Shown here: one piece after another, positions 3,602 to 31,480 of the stretch | Layout of the letters: each line of letters starts with the position of its first letter | Position numbering within the stretch: position 1 is the stretch's first letter | Virus record (IMG/VR): IMGVR_UViG_3300005096_000058 | Location: 1-64,000 of that record | Source of the DNA: a virus | Reading direction: 5' to 3' (one strand) | Length of the DNA: 64,000 bases | Translations under genes and position numbers: made by a program | The notes under the pieces: generated by a model | The model's database searches: none | Seen by the model: the letters and a program-made list of their open reading frames with translations, nothing else | What the model was told of the DNA's origin: nothing

Positions 3602-4633
3602 TTACAGCCTCCAGAACTTTGGGGAGCTCCAGTTGGCCATCGCGCGCTTGCCTGAGTTGTCGCCTTGACGGTCGTACTCCTGAGTGCCTGCGATGTGTAC
3701 GACGGTGCTGTAGAGCGTCTCAAACTTCTTACCGTCGAGCTTGTAGCCGTTTGTTAGGACGGTCACCTTCCACAGCTTGCCCCCAAACTCGCGCTCCAAA
3801 ACTGTGCCAGTTTCCAGTGCCGCAACCTTGGGGGAGCGGGCTCGCTCACGTTCAAACCTGGAAAGCGTTCCTTTTTTTGCAACCTTCTTTTTGGTGGCGG
3901 CCTTTTTTGTGGCGGCTTTCTTAACGGTTGGTTTTTTGGGGGCGGGTACCGGGACTGCCTTCTTTTTAGCCGCGACTTTCTTTTTCGGGGGAGCTTTCGC
4001 TCGGACCTTTGGTGGGGGCGCAGTCTTCTTGGTAGATTTCTTCTTTGCTGCTTTTTTCTTGGCGGGTTTGATCACCGCTTCGGTTGGTAGGGAAAAGCTT
4101 TGCGTTTCAGGCTCAGGACCACCCAACACCAAGGACAAACCCCCGACAGCGGCGGGGTCTACTGGCGTGTTAGTTGGTCCTTGTTTTTTTAGCGCCTCCA
4201 GAAGTTCGGCACTGGGTGACGCCTGCGGCGGTAAGAATTTCTCAATCGGGTTGCCCTCGGTTCCCGCGCGCCAACGACCCGTCGGATGGCCGCCCTTGTT
4301 TCGCTCCAAAAATCCTAAGAGCTTCCGGCCGATGGTGACGCCATCGACACACTCCGCACCCATACCCTCAGCGACATCGGCATCGCCAGCTACGGCACCA
4401 TTCTGCACCTGCGATTTACCAAGCTTTTGCTCCTCGATGTTGGTGATTTTTCGCGCAATGACCATGAGGCATCGATCGCGCACAAGACAGACGCCCATAC
4501 ACACGGAGCCGCCCTCAGCGTCACGATCGTCCTCAAACGCAATTCCAAAGCACTCGTACTCGCGAGAAATTCGCTTGTCGTTCCAGCTCCGCGGATCTCG
4601 GACCTCACCACTCACTTCTGCTGCTTCACTCAT
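3602..4633 (-). CDS. Lys/Ala/Pro-rich histone H1-like linker protein with DUF2924-like C-terminus
   Basis: I chose ATG 4633; the frame extends to a TTG at 4654 overlapping the upstream gene. The product is about 343 residues in three parts. The N-terminus (about 1-140) has several Cys (ECFGIAF, CMGVCLVRDRC) and is unrecognised. The middle (about 185-265) is a low-complexity run of Lys, Ala and Pro with AAKKKSTKK and VKKAATKKAATKKK repeats, like histone H1 tails. The C-terminus (about 275-343) has GTVLEREFGGKLWKVTVL, then GYKLDGKKFETLYSTVVHIAGT, interrupted here only by normal residues, and ends in WSSPKFWRL, a layout I recognise from DUF2924. It probably binds DNA or RNA. Its place in the replication operon suggests a role in template compaction or transcription, which is inference. 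Confidence 0.6.
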   Translation of the reverse strand: MSEAAEVSGEVRDPRSWNDKRISREYECFGIAFEDDRDAEGGSVCMGVCLVRDRCLMVIARKITNIEEQKLGKSQVQNGAVAGDADVAEGMGAECVDGVTIGRKLLGFLERNKGGHPTGRWRAGTEGNPIEKFLPPQASPSAELLEALKKQGPTNTPVDPAAVGGLSLVLGGPEPETQSFSLPTEAVIKPAKKKAAKKKSTKKTAPPPKVRAKAPPKKKVAAKKKAVPVPAPKKPTVKKAATKKAATKKKVAKKGTLSRFERERARSPKVAALETGTVLEREFGGKLWKVTVLTNGYKLDGKKFETLYSTVVHIAGTQEYDRQGDNSGKRAMANWSSPKFWRL

Positions 4634-4646
4634 CAGTTTTTCTCTC

Positions 4647-5162
4647 TCAGCCAATCAAGGCTGAAGCTGCAGCGCGGGCCGCAGCCAGACGGTTGTACCA
4701 ACTCTGCCGGGTCACCCCGAGGTCGGCGGATGCTTGGCGCCAGTTTGACGACAGCGCACGCTGGATCACATCCTTGTGCTCCGGGGACAGTCCCGCGTCC
4801 AGACGCCTAAGGCAATAACAGTCTTCCAGACGATGGGATTGCTGAGATTGCTGGCCATCGGCGAAAGTTTCAATTTGCCCCGCACAGTCGACAAGCCGTC
4901 TGGATTGCACGGTGGCGGCGCGCCTAAAATTGCGGGCGTGGTTCCAGAGTGACGCGTAGACGAAGGCCGCAGGTCGAGTTCCATCAGCAGCCAACACCTC
5001 GCACGCCTTCAAATGGAGCTCCTGTTCCAAATCCTGCAACGTATTGCCGTGCGGGTCAGCCGAAGATCCCCGCATGGATCGGAACGCAAAACGGGCCACT
5101 TTTTTCACCTCGGAGGCAGAGGGGTACGCTCGCGCCGTGGATGGCGCGTGATTGGTTCTCAT
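4647..5162 (-). CDS. Sigma-70-like / helix-turn-helix transcription factor
   Basis: The start at ATG 5162 follows GGGAG with good spacing. The product is 171 residues. Residues 42-82 (TLQDLEQELHLKACEVL and YASLWNHARNFRRA) resemble sigma region 2, where DLxQE is typical. Residues 122-163 (LSPEHKDVIQRAL, then WRQASADLGVTRQSWYNRL) resemble the region 4 helix-turn-helix. The middle is short and Gln-rich. It could redirect host RNA polymerase to phage middle or late promoters. It is preceded by two stem-loops and overlaps the start region of the H1-like gene. It could be a sigma-like regulator without core-binding activity. Confidence 0.55.
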   Translation of the reverse strand: MRTNHAPSTARAYPSASEVKKVARFAFRSMRGSSADPHGNTLQDLEQELHLKACEVLAADGTRPAAFVYASLWNHARNFRRAATVQSRRLVDCAGQIETFADGQQSQQSHRLEDCYCLRRLDAGLSPEHKDVIQRALSSNWRQASADLGVTRQSWYNRLAAARAAASALIG

Positions 5163-5184
5163 GGTTGTTTTCTCCCTTTATTTA

Positions 5185-5221
5185 GAGCCGTTCGGCTCCG
5201 TGTCGACGGGGTGACCCCGTC
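5185..5221 (-). other. Two adjacent stem-loops between genes
   Basis: Two inverted repeats lie between the 5231-5482 gene and the sigma-like gene: GAGCCG/CGGCTC at 5185-5198 and GACGGGG/CCCCGTC with a three-base loop at 5205-5221. On the transcript they fall just upstream of the GGGAG ribosome site. No U-run follows, so an intrinsic terminator is unlikely. An RNA processing, stability or attenuation element is more plausible. Confidence 0.5.
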
Positions 5222-5230
5222 AACGGTTAA

Positions 5231-5482
5231 CTAGAGGCCAGCCCTGGCCTCACTCAATTCTCTGTTGAATTCTTTCTCCAGCGCATCCAGAACGCTGCGG
5301 GGCGCCTTGACCGCGCGAGCCAAAAGCACTCCTTTGGTCAAGATCGCGAGGACGAAAAACGCATTGCGTGAGACACCCGCGTCGATGAGCAGCCGATCGA
5401 GGGTGGCCTGCGCGCGGCGGCCGAATCGGATTGTGGTTTTGAGAGCCACGTCTTGGCGCAATTTGGGATTAGCTTTTGCCAC
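5231..5482 (-). CDS. Small basic protein, possibly ribbon-helix-helix
   Basis: The start is GTG 5482, five bases after GGAG. The 83-residue product has a basic N-terminal strand (VALKTTIRFGRRAQ) followed by two predicted helices (ATLDRLLIDAGVSRNAFFVLAIL). That order, a strand then two helices beginning near residue 15, fits ribbon-helix-helix DNA-binding proteins. It sits directly after the primase gene with a nine-base gap. A regulatory role is inference; no close family is recognised. Confidence 0.5.
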   Translation of the reverse strand: MAKANPKLRQDVALKTTIRFGRRAQATLDRLLIDAGVSRNAFFVLAILTKGVLLARAVKAPRSVLDALEKEFNRELSEARAGL

Positions 5483-5491
5483 TTGTTCTCC

Positions 5492-6580
5492 TCACAGAAG
5501 CAGATGTCCAGATGAATAGGGGCGGGCATGGGCGCGGTAAGCCTTGAGCTCTTCGCGCGTGTAATCTCCAGGATCTCCCTGGGGGAGGAACACAATGCGC
5601 ACCTCCATGAACGCCGCTAGCTGGGCTGAGGCGGCGATCATCGCCTCCCAGGCGCCTGCGGGCTCCTTTGCGCTTGGTCCGTCCCACATGAAGTCCACCG
5701 CCCGCACGTTGGCTCTGACCAAGCGGGCGATTTGCTGAGAGCTCAGCTGTTTGCCGAAGGTGGCCACGGCGTCTGGGCCCGTGCGTATGCACGACGTGGG
5801 GCCCTCCGTGATACATACACGAGGGTAGCGGGCGGCCTGTTCTAAATTTAGAAGCACGTCGCCTGAGCCGTAAAACCTGATCCCATTGCGTTCGGCAGCG
5901 GGGTTCAGCGTCTTGCGGAACTTGTCTTTGTCGACAGATCCATCCCGCCGCACAAAGGGCCGAGACACATGCTCGTGCTCGTCCCACATTGCTCGCGCTT
6001 GCCAGTAGATGCATTTGTCCTGCTCCCAGACCGGAAAAACTAAACGGTTCGCCAACCACCCAGACGAGCACCAGCCGAGGCCGAATTGGCGCACATCCTC
6101 GGGGGTGATGCCCCTCCGGGCAAGGTAAGGCATATTGCCCGCGATAGCAACAGTTTCTTGGGGCAAGCCTGTGGGCTGTGCTGGGGCTCGCTCGGTGCGG
6201 TTTTGGAACGCGGGTTCTGGGAGAACGTCAGGGGAGCCTAGCGCGTGGCTCACAAATTCTGCGATGCGCTGAAGGGCTTCGGGTGTGTTGAGACCCTCCA
6301 TCCACTTTACAAGCCCTAGAGAGCCCCCTGCCCCCTCGTCGGCTGTCTTCTTGCCCAGAGCATCTATTTTGTATTTCTCGCAGCGAAAACATCGCCAGCG
6401 ACCTGAGCGCACGTTCACCGTCAATTTCACCAAGCCACACTTTGGGCACGGCACCAGATATTCACTGCGCCCTTCGCGCTCTGGCCCGAAGGTGCGCACG
6501 TAGCTTTCGATGTCGAAACGCTGAAGCAGAAGTTCGATGTCAGGCCTCAATACCAGATCCCGCGGCCAGCCCACATGCAC
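5492..6580 (-). CDS. DNA primase, zinc-finger plus TOPRIM type
   Basis: This primase makes RNA primers for replication. The N-terminal zinc ribbon has Cys45-x2-Cys48 (CPKC) and Cys64-x2-Cys67 (CFRC), as in DnaG-type CHC2 domains. A middle domain (LARRGITPEDVRQFGLGW, then RLVFPVWEQD and IYWQARAM) matches the DnaG core. The TOPRIM glutamate is in CITEGPTS (about 262). The second acidic motif is degenerate (FMWDGPSA), and a later GDPGDY follows. The annotated start is GTG 6580; no strong ribosome site is seen, and GTG 6574 or a downstream TTG are alternatives. It follows the DnaB-like helicase, the usual partner, in the same operon. Confidence 0.88.
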   Translation of the reverse strand: MHVGWPRDLVLRPDIELLLQRFDIESYVRTFGPEREGRSEYLVPCPKCGLVKLTVNVRSGRWRCFRCEKYKIDALGKKTADEGAGGSLGLVKWMEGLNTPEALQRIAEFVSHALGSPDVLPEPAFQNRTERAPAQPTGLPQETVAIAGNMPYLARRGITPEDVRQFGLGWCSSGWLANRLVFPVWEQDKCIYWQARAMWDEHEHVSRPFVRRDGSVDKDKFRKTLNPAAERNGIRFYGSGDVLLNLEQAARYPRVCITEGPTSCIRTGPDAVATFGKQLSSQQIARLVRANVRAVDFMWDGPSAKEPAGAWEAMIAASAQLAAFMEVRIVFLPQGDPGDYTREELKAYRAHARPYSSGHLLL

Positions 6581-6617
6581 AACATCCAGACGCCGAGCTC
6601 ATTATAAGGATCATCGA

Positions 6618-8090
6618 TCACTGCACACCCGTTTTCTGCTGCCAGCCGCCACCCGGGGCGGCATAGCCCAAAGCAGGCGCAGCGTGAGCCGTCGTTTGGT
6701 TCATCGTCGCTGGAAGGTCGACCGCGCCGCCGATCTTCATGCGCTGGAAATCACAAGCCACCAGCATCTCGACGTCGGCGGCGTTGTCCCGCAACAATTC
6801 CAGATAGAGGCGCATCACACCTTGTCGGCGTTCTTCGCGGGTCTGGTTGATCGAGCCGACCATGTCCGCGATGCGCACTTTGGCGTAGCAGTCGGCGATG
6901 TCTTTGCTTTTGAGAATGTCCTGGACGTCGTCAAAGTTAGCGTCTTTGGGTCGCTGCACTTGACTAGCTGTCCAGACGGCGAAGCCACGGTTGGCCAAGC
7001 TTTTAAGATCTTGGAATGACGATTTCTGCGAGTCCGTGTCTGATTTGTACCCCCCGGGGCGGGGGCGCCCGTCCAGCAAATCGCAATAATCGACGATGAT
7101 GACGTCGGGGGACCAACCGTGCACTTGCTTCAATTCACGCATCTCATTCCAGATGTGCGTGATGTTGAAGTCCCAGTCGTCGGTGAAGGCACGCACGACG
7201 CATTGGCTGCGCAACATCTGCATCTCTTGGTAGGCCATCGCATACCGAGCCGCATCGATCTCACCCGCACGCACGTTCGTGTAGAGTTCGTCGGTGAAGA
7301 CGGTGTCATAGCGATCAGCGATGTAGCCGCCGCTCCCCTCCAGCGGAATGTGCAACACCTTTCGATTGTACGCGCGCAAGGCTACCGCGCCCTTGTTGAC
7401 TAAAAAAGTAGTTTTCCCAGCTTTAGGTCTGGACAACCACACGCCCAAGAACCCCGGGTGGGCGCCACCACCTAAAGCCTTGTCGAGAGCGGGAATCCCT
7501 GTGCCTGTGTGGCGGCCCTGCATCTCCAGCGATTGCCGCTTGATATGTCGATCAGCGAGTTCGTCCATGAGCCACTGCCGATCGGGAGTCTCCCACGAAA
7601 CTGAACGCAATGAATCCAGACGTTCCTGCATGAAATCATATGCGGCGTCGACCTTGCCCGCATTGAACAGGTCGCGTGAATCGATGTATGCCTCACGGAA
7701 CACCTGCCGTTTGATGAAATCTAAAGTCTTGTCGCGCAGCCAAGGTTCGTCCGTGACTGGCCGCTCGATCACACCCTGCAGCACGGCTGCGTACACGGGC
7801 TGGAGGTTGGGGTCGAGCGAACGCACTTGGTCAATAACAACGGGGAGCGTAGGGAATGCGCCGTAGCTAGAGGCGTACCACTGCGAAAACCCGAAGCTCC
7901 AAGCCATGGCTTCGTTCTGGAAAAACTTTGGTTGAAGGTATTTGGCCACCTGTCTGGAGAAGCCGCTGTCCTCTAGTAGGAGTCTGATCAACATGCCCTG
8001 GAATTCCACCCCGAAGACAGAGCCTAGATCTTGCGCCTCCGGTTGTGGGTGGGGCCTCTGTTGGTAGAGCGTGACCGGGCGCCTATCCAT
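6618..8090 (-). CDS. Replicative DNA helicase, DnaB-like
   Basis: This 490-residue RecA-fold helicase unwinds DNA ahead of the fork. A Walker A motif lies near residue 220 (SRPKAGKTTF) and a Walker B near 328 (VIIVDYCDLL), followed by a sensor/strand pattern ending in TASQVQRP and later INQTREER. The N-terminal half (1-190) is helical, as in DnaB. The C-terminal 40 residues are low-complexity Ala/Gly/Gln. Its start at 8090 overlaps the end of the upstream gene by eight bases. The primase follows 37 bases downstream. Confidence 0.92.
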   Translation of the reverse strand: MDRRPVTLYQQRPHPQPEAQDLGSVFGVEFQGMLIRLLLEDSGFSRQVAKYLQPKFFQNEAMAWSFGFSQWYASSYGAFPTLPVVIDQVRSLDPNLQPVYAAVLQGVIERPVTDEPWLRDKTLDFIKRQVFREAYIDSRDLFNAGKVDAAYDFMQERLDSLRSVSWETPDRQWLMDELADRHIKRQSLEMQGRHTGTGIPALDKALGGGAHPGFLGVWLSRPKAGKTTFLVNKGAVALRAYNRKVLHIPLEGSGGYIADRYDTVFTDELYTNVRAGEIDAARYAMAYQEMQMLRSQCVVRAFTDDWDFNITHIWNEMRELKQVHGWSPDVIIVDYCDLLDGRPRPGGYKSDTDSQKSSFQDLKSLANRGFAVWTASQVQRPKDANFDDVQDILKSKDIADCYAKVRIADMVGSINQTREERRQGVMRLYLELLRDNAADVEMLVACDFQRMKIGGAVDLPATMNQTTAHAAPALGYAAPGGGWQQKTGVQ

Positions 8091-27744: not shown

Positions 27745-28293
27745 TTAGCCGTGGTGCACATCTGCGTGACACCCGGAACAGAGCCAAGTTACTTCCAAAG
27801 GTTTGGAGTAGTCCTCATGATGGGCCTGGATGCGCCGGTCGTCGCAGCCACATTTGGGGCAGACTTCTGGACGTATCAACTTCCCAGTTTTCACAGCGTG
27901 GTAGACTGCGTTGTACGCCCGCTTCTCTTCGGCGTAGCGGCCTTCCTGGAGATACTGCCGTTTGAGATTAGCGTTTGTAGCTCTGCCCTTGTCACTCTTT
28001 CGGTACCGCTCTTGTGATTCACGGCCAGCATCGCTCTGTTGGTAACGCTTCTTTGCGGCCTTCGCCGCAGGAGTGTGGTTAGCGCGCCGCCGAGCTTCCT
28101 TATATTTCTCCTGCGCGTCGTAGGCTTTCTGAGAGAGCTTGCCCGCTGGGGTGTTCCGGTAAGACCGTTGATAGGCGGCGAGGCAAACCTTGCACCGGCC
28201 GCTGAACCCGTCTCGGTTCGCCTTCACACGCTTAAAAGAAACGGGGAGGTCTTTGACCTCCCCGCACGAAACGCACTTCTTTTTGGTTGTCAT
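27745..28293 (-). CDS. Free-standing HNH homing endonuclease
   Basis: The 182-residue product has a first zinc-binding pair at Cys7/Cys10 and Cys34/Cys37 (CVSCGEVK and GRCKVCLA) and a C-terminal HNH-type block. That block has Cys145/Cys148 (CPKC), His158-His159 (IQAHHEDY), and Cys172/Cys175 followed by His (CSGCHADVHH). The region between is basic and repetitive (YRNTPAGKLSQKAY, YQQSDAGRESQERY), probably the DNA-recognition part made of short helical repeats. It is inserted between the tube and chaperone genes and has no clear ribosome site. Confidence 0.85.
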   Translation of the reverse strand: MTTKKKCVSCGEVKDLPVSFKRVKANRDGFSGRCKVCLAAYQRSYRNTPAGKLSQKAYDAQEKYKEARRRANHTPAAKAAKKRYQQSDAGRESQERYRKSDKGRATNANLKRQYLQEGRYAEEKRAYNAVYHAVKTGKLIRPEVCPKCGCDDRRIQAHHEDYSKPLEVTWLCSGCHADVHHG

Positions 28294-28342: not shown

Positions 28343-28789
28343 CTATACCTCACTCTCATCTCTCATCCGAATACCTACGAAATCAGCGTCGATGGCCACG
28401 ATGCCGGTGGCGTCGACGGTGAAGTTGCGGCTCGTGATCTGCGACTGTTCCAACGTCATGATCACGGCACCCGTCTGGTTGTCCTCAATCGTCACCGTGA
28501 GCAGCCCTTGGGTGATCACGTTCGTGAGGTGCTCCTCAGGGCTGGAACCGAGCGCAGGGAACCAACCCAGGCTCTTGAGGCTCGTGCGCACGACACGGAC
28601 GAAGCCCATCGAGAATGAGACGCGGTACCGGGTAGGCACGTTCTCCTCGACCTGGATGTTGTCGAGGGCCTCAACCGGTTCCATCTGGATCTGCTCGTTG
28701 CCGTTGCAGTTCCGCGCGTAGCCGACCTTCACACCGTTCACGAGCAAGCGTGCACGTGCTCCGGTGAAGACCAATCCTTTTTCAGCCAT
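28343..28789 (-). CDS. Tail tube protein
   Basis: The start ATG 28789 follows CAGGAG. The 148-residue product has the size and beta-rich layout of tube proteins: GARARLLVNGVKVGYARN at the N-terminus, YRVSFSMGFVRVVRTSLKSL in the middle, and a final strand DADFVGIRMRDE. It follows the sheath gene directly, the standard order in contractile tails. Confidence 0.8.
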   Translation of the reverse strand: MAEKGLVFTGARARLLVNGVKVGYARNCNGNEQIQMEPVEALDNIQVEENVPTRYRVSFSMGFVRVVRTSLKSLGWFPALGSSPEEHLTNVITQGLLTVTIEDNQTGAVIMTLEQSQITSRNFTVDATGIVAIDADFVGIRMRDESEV

Positions 28790-28824: not shown

Positions 28825-31143
28825 TTAGCCGTCTTGCAGCTGCGCCAGCGTCACGAGGTGGACGACAATACGCACAAAGTTGATGGGGATGACGGGCGCC
28901 ATCTCGACGCTGACATCCATGACGTCGAGGATGAGTTCGATGTCGAGGTTGCGGAAGCCGACGAGCACGAGCGCGTCAACGAGAAGGCCAAGCGTTGCGG
29001 TGGCGTTGGACCGAGTCGAGGCCACCGTCCCGCTGAACCCCTTTTTGCCGACGATGAATTCAAGGTTTGTGCGGAAGTTGAAGACCGCAAAGTTCACCGC
29101 CTCGTTCACCGACGCTTCAACGAACGCAATGTTGTTGTCGACGAGGTAGGTGGTGACGTTCCGCTTGATCCTGCGGCCAACGCCCTCGACGTCCTCAAGG
29201 AAACAAGCACCCGCGTTGATCAACTCCTCAGCGTCGTCAGTGGGGTTCCAGGTGCTGTGCTGACGGAAACCTAAGACGTTCATGAACTTGTGGGTGAGGC
29301 TGATGCCGATGTCGCTGCCCGCTTGTGCTCCCGCAGCCACCGCACCCAAGAACGGTGGAAGATATTCCGTGCGTTCGCCAACCGTGTTGAAGCGCTCGAT
29401 CGCCTGGCCGAAACAGCGCAGGTGCCTCGTGTTGAGGTCGACAATCTGCTCTTTGTACTCATCCTTTGTGGGCACGTCTGTGAGCGCAGCGTTAAGAGCA
29501 CCTACGAACCCGTCACGCTCAGATCGCCCGATGCCGCCCATAAGCGCGCAGTGTGCGTCGACGGCCGCGGCGATGGCTGGGCTACCGGACAGGTCTACAA
29601 TGGAATTGACACGCAGCTTCTTGAGCAGGTTGAGCGCGGACTGGTAGTCCGCGAAAGTAGCAATACCCTCGATGCCGCCTGTAAGCGCGATCGGGGACGA
29701 GGTGTTGTCTGGCACGCCGGTGGCGCCCACGCTTTTCACAGCGGAAATCAGCTGCGAATTCTGGTTGACCCACGCGATGATCGCGTAGAGGTCAGCGGTG
29801 TAATTGAAGTCGGCCGGGTTGAGGATTGACTGCCCCGTGAGGTCTTGGTCAAAATTGGCCGGGTCGAAAAGGTGCTGACCAGTCTCCAACGTGAAAATGA
29901 ACCCCTCCGTCGTGGGGCCCGCTGTGATCTGCTGCTTCGAATTGAAGTAATCGTTGACCTTGAGGATCGTGTCCTGGACCGAAGCCAACGCAACCGCGGC
30001 CACGGCCGTGAGGGTCAGGGTCTGCGCCGCCTCCATGGCACCCAGCACGATGACGTCGATGAACGCGTTGGAACTCGCCACGGAAGTCACGGTGGTCGTA
30101 CCGGTGAGGGGCACCGCCTCGTTCACAGCAGCCCCCGCCGCATCGCGACCAAAGAGCAGCACCGTGGCCACCGAGGCGCCACTCGACACCAGATCCACCG
30201 TGGTGTTGTTGACGTAGCAGTTGTCGCAGCTGATCAAGCCTTGTTCCACATCAGTGCCGGGAGCAAGCGAGAGCACCGTGGCACCGCCGCCTACGATCCG
30301 CACCAAAATGGTGCCCGCGGTGACGCCAGTAACGCGTGCGCCAAGCAGACCGCCAGCGTCCCAAACCACTGAGCCAGCGACGACCCCAACACCGTTGCTC
30401 GACAAGAGTTCAACGGTGGGGACGCCAGCGACAAGGCCGAAGAGCTCCACGGGGAGGCCCACATCGCCCGCGTCAGAGGAGACAATCTCCGCTGCAGCAT
30501 TTGTGACGGGATTGACGACCTGGCCGTCCAGGCCCACGGAGGACCGCGTGGCCGTAACTGTGGTGTTACCCGCGGCGGACACGGTGGCGACGGCAGTTTG
30601 ATAACCGTCTGGACCTGACACGTAGCTCAGCGTGGCGAGAGTTTCGCCACCGAGATCGTCGACGCTTTCGACGATGTCCTCGAAGGTGATCGTGAGAAGT
30701 TTGCCCTTAGTGGTGCCCGTCTGGACATCGACGGTGATCTGCTCGGTGAACGCGCCATAATCGCGCGAGGTGAGATCGATCGCGGGCCCGTCAATGTTGG
30801 TGAGGGCCCCCGTCGATTGCGTGGCCGGATTGGTCTTCATCGCCACAAATTCAACCGCACCCGCTGGGATGTCTGGATCTTTGGCGGGAGAAAACAACAT
30901 TCCAGCCACTTCGCGCAGCTGACCGCTTTTGAAGGCACGACGTGCTTTCTCTGCGTTGCCGAAACGGGGGATGTCCTTGGTTTCAACGATCGAAGAAACA
31001 GGGCGCCCGCCGACGGCGGTACCAAGCACCGCAACGATACCCGCCGCCCCGAGGGACACGGTGTCGAGGCCTGAAGCGTCGACCTCGGAATAGGCACCGG
31101 GGATGCTGATCACCCGGCCATTGAAGAAAATCGAGGTGGCGAT
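28825..31143 (-). CDS. Tail sheath protein, probable AUC start
   Basis: The C-terminal half is typical of contractile sheaths: SIGISLTHKFMNVLGF-type region (here GSDIGISLTHKFMNVLGFRQ), ACFLEDVEGVGRRIKRNVTT, and NFAVFNFRTNLEFIVGKKGF. The family N-terminus (FFNGRxIxxPGxYSEVDxSGL) is also present: TSIFFNGRVISIPGAYSEVD. That segment begins upstream of the only canonical start (GTG 31113, no ribosome site). It starts at ATC 31143, exactly five bases after AGGAGG. No ATG, GTG or TTG lies in frame between the stop at 31153-31155 and 31113. The product from ATC is 772 residues, with a large beta-rich insertion in the first half. Confidence 0.9.
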   Translation of the reverse strand: MATSIFFNGRVISIPGAYSEVDASGLDTVSLGAAGIVAVLGTAVGGRPVSSIVETKDIPRFGNAEKARRAFKSGQLREVAGMLFSPAKDPDIPAGAVEFVAMKTNPATQSTGALTNIDGPAIDLTSRDYGAFTEQITVDVQTGTTKGKLLTITFEDIVESVDDLGGETLATLSYVSGPDGYQTAVATVSAAGNTTVTATRSSVGLDGQVVNPVTNAAAEIVSSDAGDVGLPVELFGLVAGVPTVELLSSNGVGVVAGSVVWDAGGLLGARVTGVTAGTILVRIVGGGATVLSLAPGTDVEQGLISCDNCYVNNTTVDLVSSGASVATVLLFGRDAAGAAVNEAVPLTGTTTVTSVASSNAFIDVIVLGAMEAAQTLTLTAVAAVALASVQDTILKVNDYFNSKQQITAGPTTEGFIFTLETGQHLFDPANFDQDLTGQSILNPADFNYTADLYAIIAWVNQNSQLISAVKSVGATGVPDNTSSPIALTGGIEGIATFADYQSALNLLKKLRVNSIVDLSGSPAIAAAVDAHCALMGGIGRSERDGFVGALNAALTDVPTKDEYKEQIVDLNTRHLRCFGQAIERFNTVGERTEYLPPFLGAVAAGAQAGSDIGISLTHKFMNVLGFRQHSTWNPTDDAEELINAGACFLEDVEGVGRRIKRNVTTYLVDNNIAFVEASVNEAVNFAVFNFRTNLEFIVGKKGFSGTVASTRSNATATLGLLVDALVLVGFRNLDIELILDVMDVSVEMAPVIPINFVRIVVHLVTLAQLQDG

Positions 31144-31162
31144 AGCGTCCTCCTAGGTGGCG

Positions 31163-31480
31163 TCAGCCTACTGGTAGCGTCTGGAACTCAGCGAGAAGCT
31201 CGCGCCAGCGCGACATGGTGTGCTTGGTGTGATTGGTTTTGGAGATCCACGCTTTGAACCCGACCAATTGGTCGTCTTTTTCGGCAGCGGCGCGAATGAA
31301 GGTGCGGAGAGGAACCTCGCCCGTAGCGCACCCTCGACGGCGTGGTCGTGCACCCGCCTGCACAACGCCAGTACCAGTGATCGTGGCTGGGACGGCTGGT
31401 GAATTGGCGATCGCCAATTCACCTTTGGGCTCACGATCTAGCGCGCGATCGGAGGTCGACGAGGTTGTGCGTTTAGCCAT
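31163..31480 (-). CDS. Small hypothetical protein
   Basis: The ATG 31480 start follows GGAG. The product is 105 residues: a Ser/Thr/Arg-rich disordered N-terminus and a helical C-terminus (FKAWISKTNHTKHTMSRWRELLAEFQ). It overlaps the upstream gene by eight bases and precedes the sheath. The family is unrecognised; a neck or sheath-assembly role is inferred from place. Confidence 0.65.
   Translation of the reverse strand: MAKRTTSSTSDRALDREPKGELAIANSPAVPATITGTGVVQAGARPRRRGCATGEVPLRTFIRAAAEKDDQLVGFKAWISKTNHTKHTMSRWRELLAEFQTLPVG

Follow-up and report, generated by a model that had tools for sequence, protein, structure and literature searches.

A strong Shine-Dalgarno sequence can bring a near-cognate codon into the P site, with fMet-tRNA pairing only at its A and U. 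Such weak third-base pairs are excluded by IF3 (PMC10158994). Natural examples of starts of this kind include infC, which begins with AUU in E. coli and with ATC in Streptomyces, and sigR of Streptomyces, whose GTC start is repressed by IF3 and has a misleading GTG nearby (PMC5472188). The efficiency of near-cognate codons varies between hosts, since with one leader AUC and three other codons gave 0.1-0.3% of AUG in E. coli and 5-20% in two clostridia, whereas with another leader six non-AUG codons gave 0.04-3% of AUG in E. coli and 40-100% in clostridia (PMC9680021).

The gene compared here with these systems lies in a window of 64,000 bases, the whole stretch of DNA that was analysed, which corresponds to bases 1-64000 of the 110,147-base virus record IMGVR_UViG_3300005096_000058, from a large uncultured phage. 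It encodes a phage tail sheath and appears to begin with AUC. Like infC, it would have a natural start outside AUG, GUG and UUG, and in Streptomyces infC the codon is exactly AUC, but infC is a self-controlling regulatory gene, whereas the sheath gene is structural and belongs to a phage without IF3. Features common to sigR and the sheath gene are a third-base C set against the CAU anticodon, a strong Shine-Dalgarno sequence and a misleading GTG; however, Edman degradation, stop-codon mutants and IF3 dosage provided proof for sigR, whereas the case for the sheath start is comparative. We know of no precedent for an AUC start in a structural phage gene, and a search of the open literature found no report of one on a phage virion gene, although a search of open papers only is weak evidence of absence.

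The sheath gene and its start region

The tail sheath gene occupies 28825..31143 on the minus strand, with 772 codons and a stop when read from ATC 31143. In a profile search its product matched PHROG 279 (tail sheath) at 4.9e-37, and a 7-member profile matched the solved phage sheath 5li2 at 1.6e-58. The window protein shares its family with the contractile sheaths of PHROG 279 (e.g., 5li2_A), including the N-terminal FFNGR region. It is the sole sheath copy in its 110 kb record, and no second copy with a normal start was found. The next gene, at 28343-28789, had PHROG 985 (‘virion structural protein’) as its sole match, and the gene at the same position is the major tail protein in the annotations of ST4 and Dolphis. 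Just downstream of that gene, a minus-strand open reading frame at 27745-28293 is HNH-type nuclease-like, with paired Cys/His motifs and no Pfam match at 0.001. Sheaths of this family also vary in length, the frame at 4618-7185 of G010 (IMGVR_UViG_3300045974_000806) being a variant of 872 amino acids, ∼100 longer than that of the window, that matched in two pieces.

The start region on the minus strand reads CC TAG GAG GAC GCT ATC GCC ACC TCG ATT TTC TTC AAT GGC CGG GTG ATC. An in-frame TAG at 31153..31155 closes the sheath frame, and three codons lie between it and the putative AUC start codon at 31141..31143. The Shine-Dalgarno sequence AGGAGG (31149..31154, minus strand) is separated from the ATC by the 5-base spacer ACGCT (31148-31144). 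No ATG, GTG or TTG occurs in frame in the window sequence between the TAG at 31155-31153 and GTG 31113, so that the first in-frame canonical start is this GTG, which specifies Val at codon 11 (31111..31113, minus strand) and is apparently internal, with conserved coding sequence preceding it. The upstream gene, of 105 codons (31163..31480, minus strand), is in another frame, ends 19 bases before the ATC and has an ortholog in the record of L001, the nearest relative found. The preliminary description had reported the coordinates, the AGGAGG, its 5-base spacing and the lack of ATG, GTG or TTG before GTG 31113, and all were exact when the sequence was read again. It had also taken ATSIFFNGR, read from the ATC, to be the family N-terminus, and the homologues bear this out, as the sheath of a second relative, L083, matched PHROG 279 (1e-18) with the match beginning at residue 3, and homologues that begin with ATG align at this position.

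Conservation of the ATC codon

L001 is an independent contig of 106.8 kb whose sheath is 75% identical to that of the window at the amino-acid level, with ∼79% DNA identity over the start stretch. Its start region reads GAGGAG TAA GTC ATC GCT ACT TCA ATC TTT TTT AAT GGT CGC GTG, in which an in-frame TAA is followed by one codon and then by an ATC homologous to that of the window. When codons 2-10 were compared, 8 base differences were found in 8 of the 9 codons, all of them synonymous and at the third position, and when 8 changes were placed at random 200,000 times, the peptide was never preserved. Since change in these codons is only synonymous, the ten codons before GTG 31113 must be coding in both phages. 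This comparison places the beginning of the coding region at or before ATC 31143, with the codon kept as ATC. For this pair, sharing the ATC is not in itself significant, as 16 of the 30 Ile codons shared by the two sheaths are ATC in both.

The constraint on these codons bears on whether the sheath might start at GTG 31113, leaving the conserved codons upstream of it untranslated. This GTG is the first canonical start, and codon 11 is GTG in all four of the sequences that carry ATC at the homologous codon. However, the GTG has no Shine-Dalgarno match before it, and the ten codons that precede it, besides being under strict amino-acid constraint, constitute the family N-terminus that ATG-start homologues translate. 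We therefore consider a start at codon 11 very improbable.

To place the ATC within the family, 46 distinct sheath start regions were obtained from N-terminus scans of IMG/VR, one of the 46 coming from a bacterial MAG. Starts were tallied at the homologous codon or a few codons away, most being at that codon or one upstream. There were 37 ATG, 5 GTG, 1 TTG and 3 ATC starts (window, L001 and L083), with one relative, L085, counted among the 37 ATG starts although either ATC or ATG could be its start. The window, L001, L083 and L085 have ATC at the homologous codon, whereas the other PHROG 279 relatives with readable starts have ATG, or GTG or TTG, at that position or up to a few codons upstream. 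In a pattern scan, with the pattern as used, no contig was found to carry ATT or ATA in place of the ATC. A protein scan of genome contigs found no sheath relatives, and a DNA pattern scan of genome contigs found one, in a Myxococcales MAG, with an ATG start. The spacing from the Shine-Dalgarno sequence to the ATC was 5, 5 and 8 bases, and for canonical starts it was 4-9 bases with one outlier.

The start region of L083 reads AAGGAGG ATATCCCC ATC GCT ACG ACT ATA, and no canonical start is present from the upstream TAG to the ATC. L085 carries the ATC as well, but three codons upstream of it lies an in-frame ATG, so AUC may not be used in that phage; the spacing of its AAGGA suits the ATC and not the upstream ATG. 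Directly upstream of the L085 sheath start, an HNH_3 homing-type endonuclease gene (L085:4609-5208, minus strand; Pfam 7.1e-12) is present as an antisense insertion.

An AUC start had been proposed in the preliminary description over its main alternative, a true ATG with a single base miscalled in the assembly, and the same codon in related phages had been suggested as a check. ATC is one base from ATG, and ATG is found in most homologues, but the same ATC is present in L001, L085 and L083. It is not credible that the same wrong base was called independently two or more times, and for the window clade L001 already rules out an error. With the ATC also found in L083, and with L001 and L083 both having a well-spaced Shine-Dalgarno sequence and no usable canonical start, miscalling in the window is effectively excluded.

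Evolutionary history was evaluated with a tree of 53 sheath sequences. The window, L001 and L085 formed a clade with support of 100/99, and L083 was far from this clade, with L097, which has an ATG start, as its sister. A single clade holding the four ATC sequences together was rejected (AU p 0.0008), indicating that ATC arose at least twice in the sheath gene. The second origin, in L083, is likely but less than certain, because L083 is one 4.5 kb contig and the ATC there could be an error.

Other routes to the N-terminus and decoding in these phages

Ribosomes might instead enter the conserved N-terminus by frameshifting or reading through from the upstream gene, or by initiating in a different frame, and in the window the upstream gene does end close to the ATC. 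However, entry in frame is blocked by the stops just upstream of the ATC, with three intervening codons in the window and a single one in L001, and in L083 the end of the upstream gene is ∼70 bases away. No conserved slippery site was seen, and the Shine-Dalgarno sequence is placed for the ATC. Entry from upstream or from another frame is, in our judgment, highly unlikely. The Ile at codon 5 was also rejected as a start, since its codon varies among ATT, ATC and ATA and is 17 bases away from the Shine-Dalgarno sequence.

In a comparison of 90 ortholog pairs between the window phage and the L001 phage, only in the sheath were the first canonical starts of both phages preceded by a long stretch of codons with identical amino acids and synonymous variation. 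All 10 codons of the sheath run were identical in protein and 8 were synonymous, and the next best pair had 9 of 13, with 3 synonymous. This runner-up, 46655-45585, was rejected as a second AUC-type gene because its conserved leader precedes a normal ATG. The leader (∼46690-46617, minus strand; CAAAGGGCAGCCCTAACGCCTAACCCCTAG and beyond) is unusually conserved between the window and its ortholog in G001 (L153), and might be a promoter or a regulatory element.

The 90 pairs gave no indication that these phages use AUC starts generally. A phage-encoded initiator tRNA that reads AUC was rejected because no tRNA genes were detected in either phage record, and a phage-encoded IF3 was rejected because the phages have no homologue. 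With one gene in 90 pairs, no tRNA and no IF3, there is no sign that decoding is generally altered.

The possibility of structure at the start site was also considered. In all four ATC sequences (31143-31107 in the window, and the equivalent positions elsewhere), AUCGC in codons 1-2 can pair with GUGAU in codons 11-12, and AUG would break this helix. A start-site hairpin was rejected, however, because folding energies were no better than those of shuffles (z -0.89 to 0.97), and GTG is also found at codon 11 in some members with ATG or GTG starts. We regard the AUCGC-GUGAU helix as a weak lead.

Probable initiation at AUC and its possible role

Sheath translation very probably begins at AUC 31143 with fMet. 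In the mechanism we propose, AGGAGG would position the 30S subunit with AUC in the P site, and host fMet-tRNA (anticodon CAU) would pair with the A and U, the C-C clash at the third base being tolerated. The product would be fMet-Ala-Thr-Ser-Ile-Phe-Phe..., with the initiator Met probably removed because of the Ala at residue 2. We infer initiation at AUC, the use of Met, and a yield lower than that of AUG and dependent on IF3 and the host. AUC initiation at the sheath gene is probably IF3-sensitive. A likely consequence, and the weakest step in the proposal, is that AUC would limit or delay sheath production in comparison with that of other tail genes. The very weak activity of AUC in E. coli is awkward for an abundant protein and sits badly with this mechanism.

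Selection could also have made the AUC a regulatory device, with IF3 restraining the sheath until late infection or holding it below other tail proteins; this is compatible with AUC initiation. In its favor, a single gene has acquired this rare codon at least twice, ATC has been retained across 25% protein divergence with the Shine-Dalgarno sequence always at normal spacing, and IF3 repression at the GTC of sigR (PMC5472188) provides a precedent. There are, however, four sequences only, the structure of the start region is no better than that of shuffles, and a tolerated mutation in an IF3-permissive host would account for the same facts, leaving selection for regulation a possible reading that we do not favor. 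A broader version, in which a large-phage lineage would time the translation of a major virion protein, or set its stoichiometry, through an AUC start acquired independently in two or more lineages, with sheath synthesis tracking host IF3 activity, is offered more tentatively still and seems rather unlikely.

As a rule, gene-calling programs recognize no starts besides ATG, GTG and TTG, so ten conserved sheath residues would be cut in these phages. Recurrence of the codon in a second lineage hints at selection, and a conserved AUC on a major structural gene would indicate that some hosts allow near-cognate starts on high-demand genes. The sheath AUC may provide a natural setting in which to test for IF3 control during phage development.
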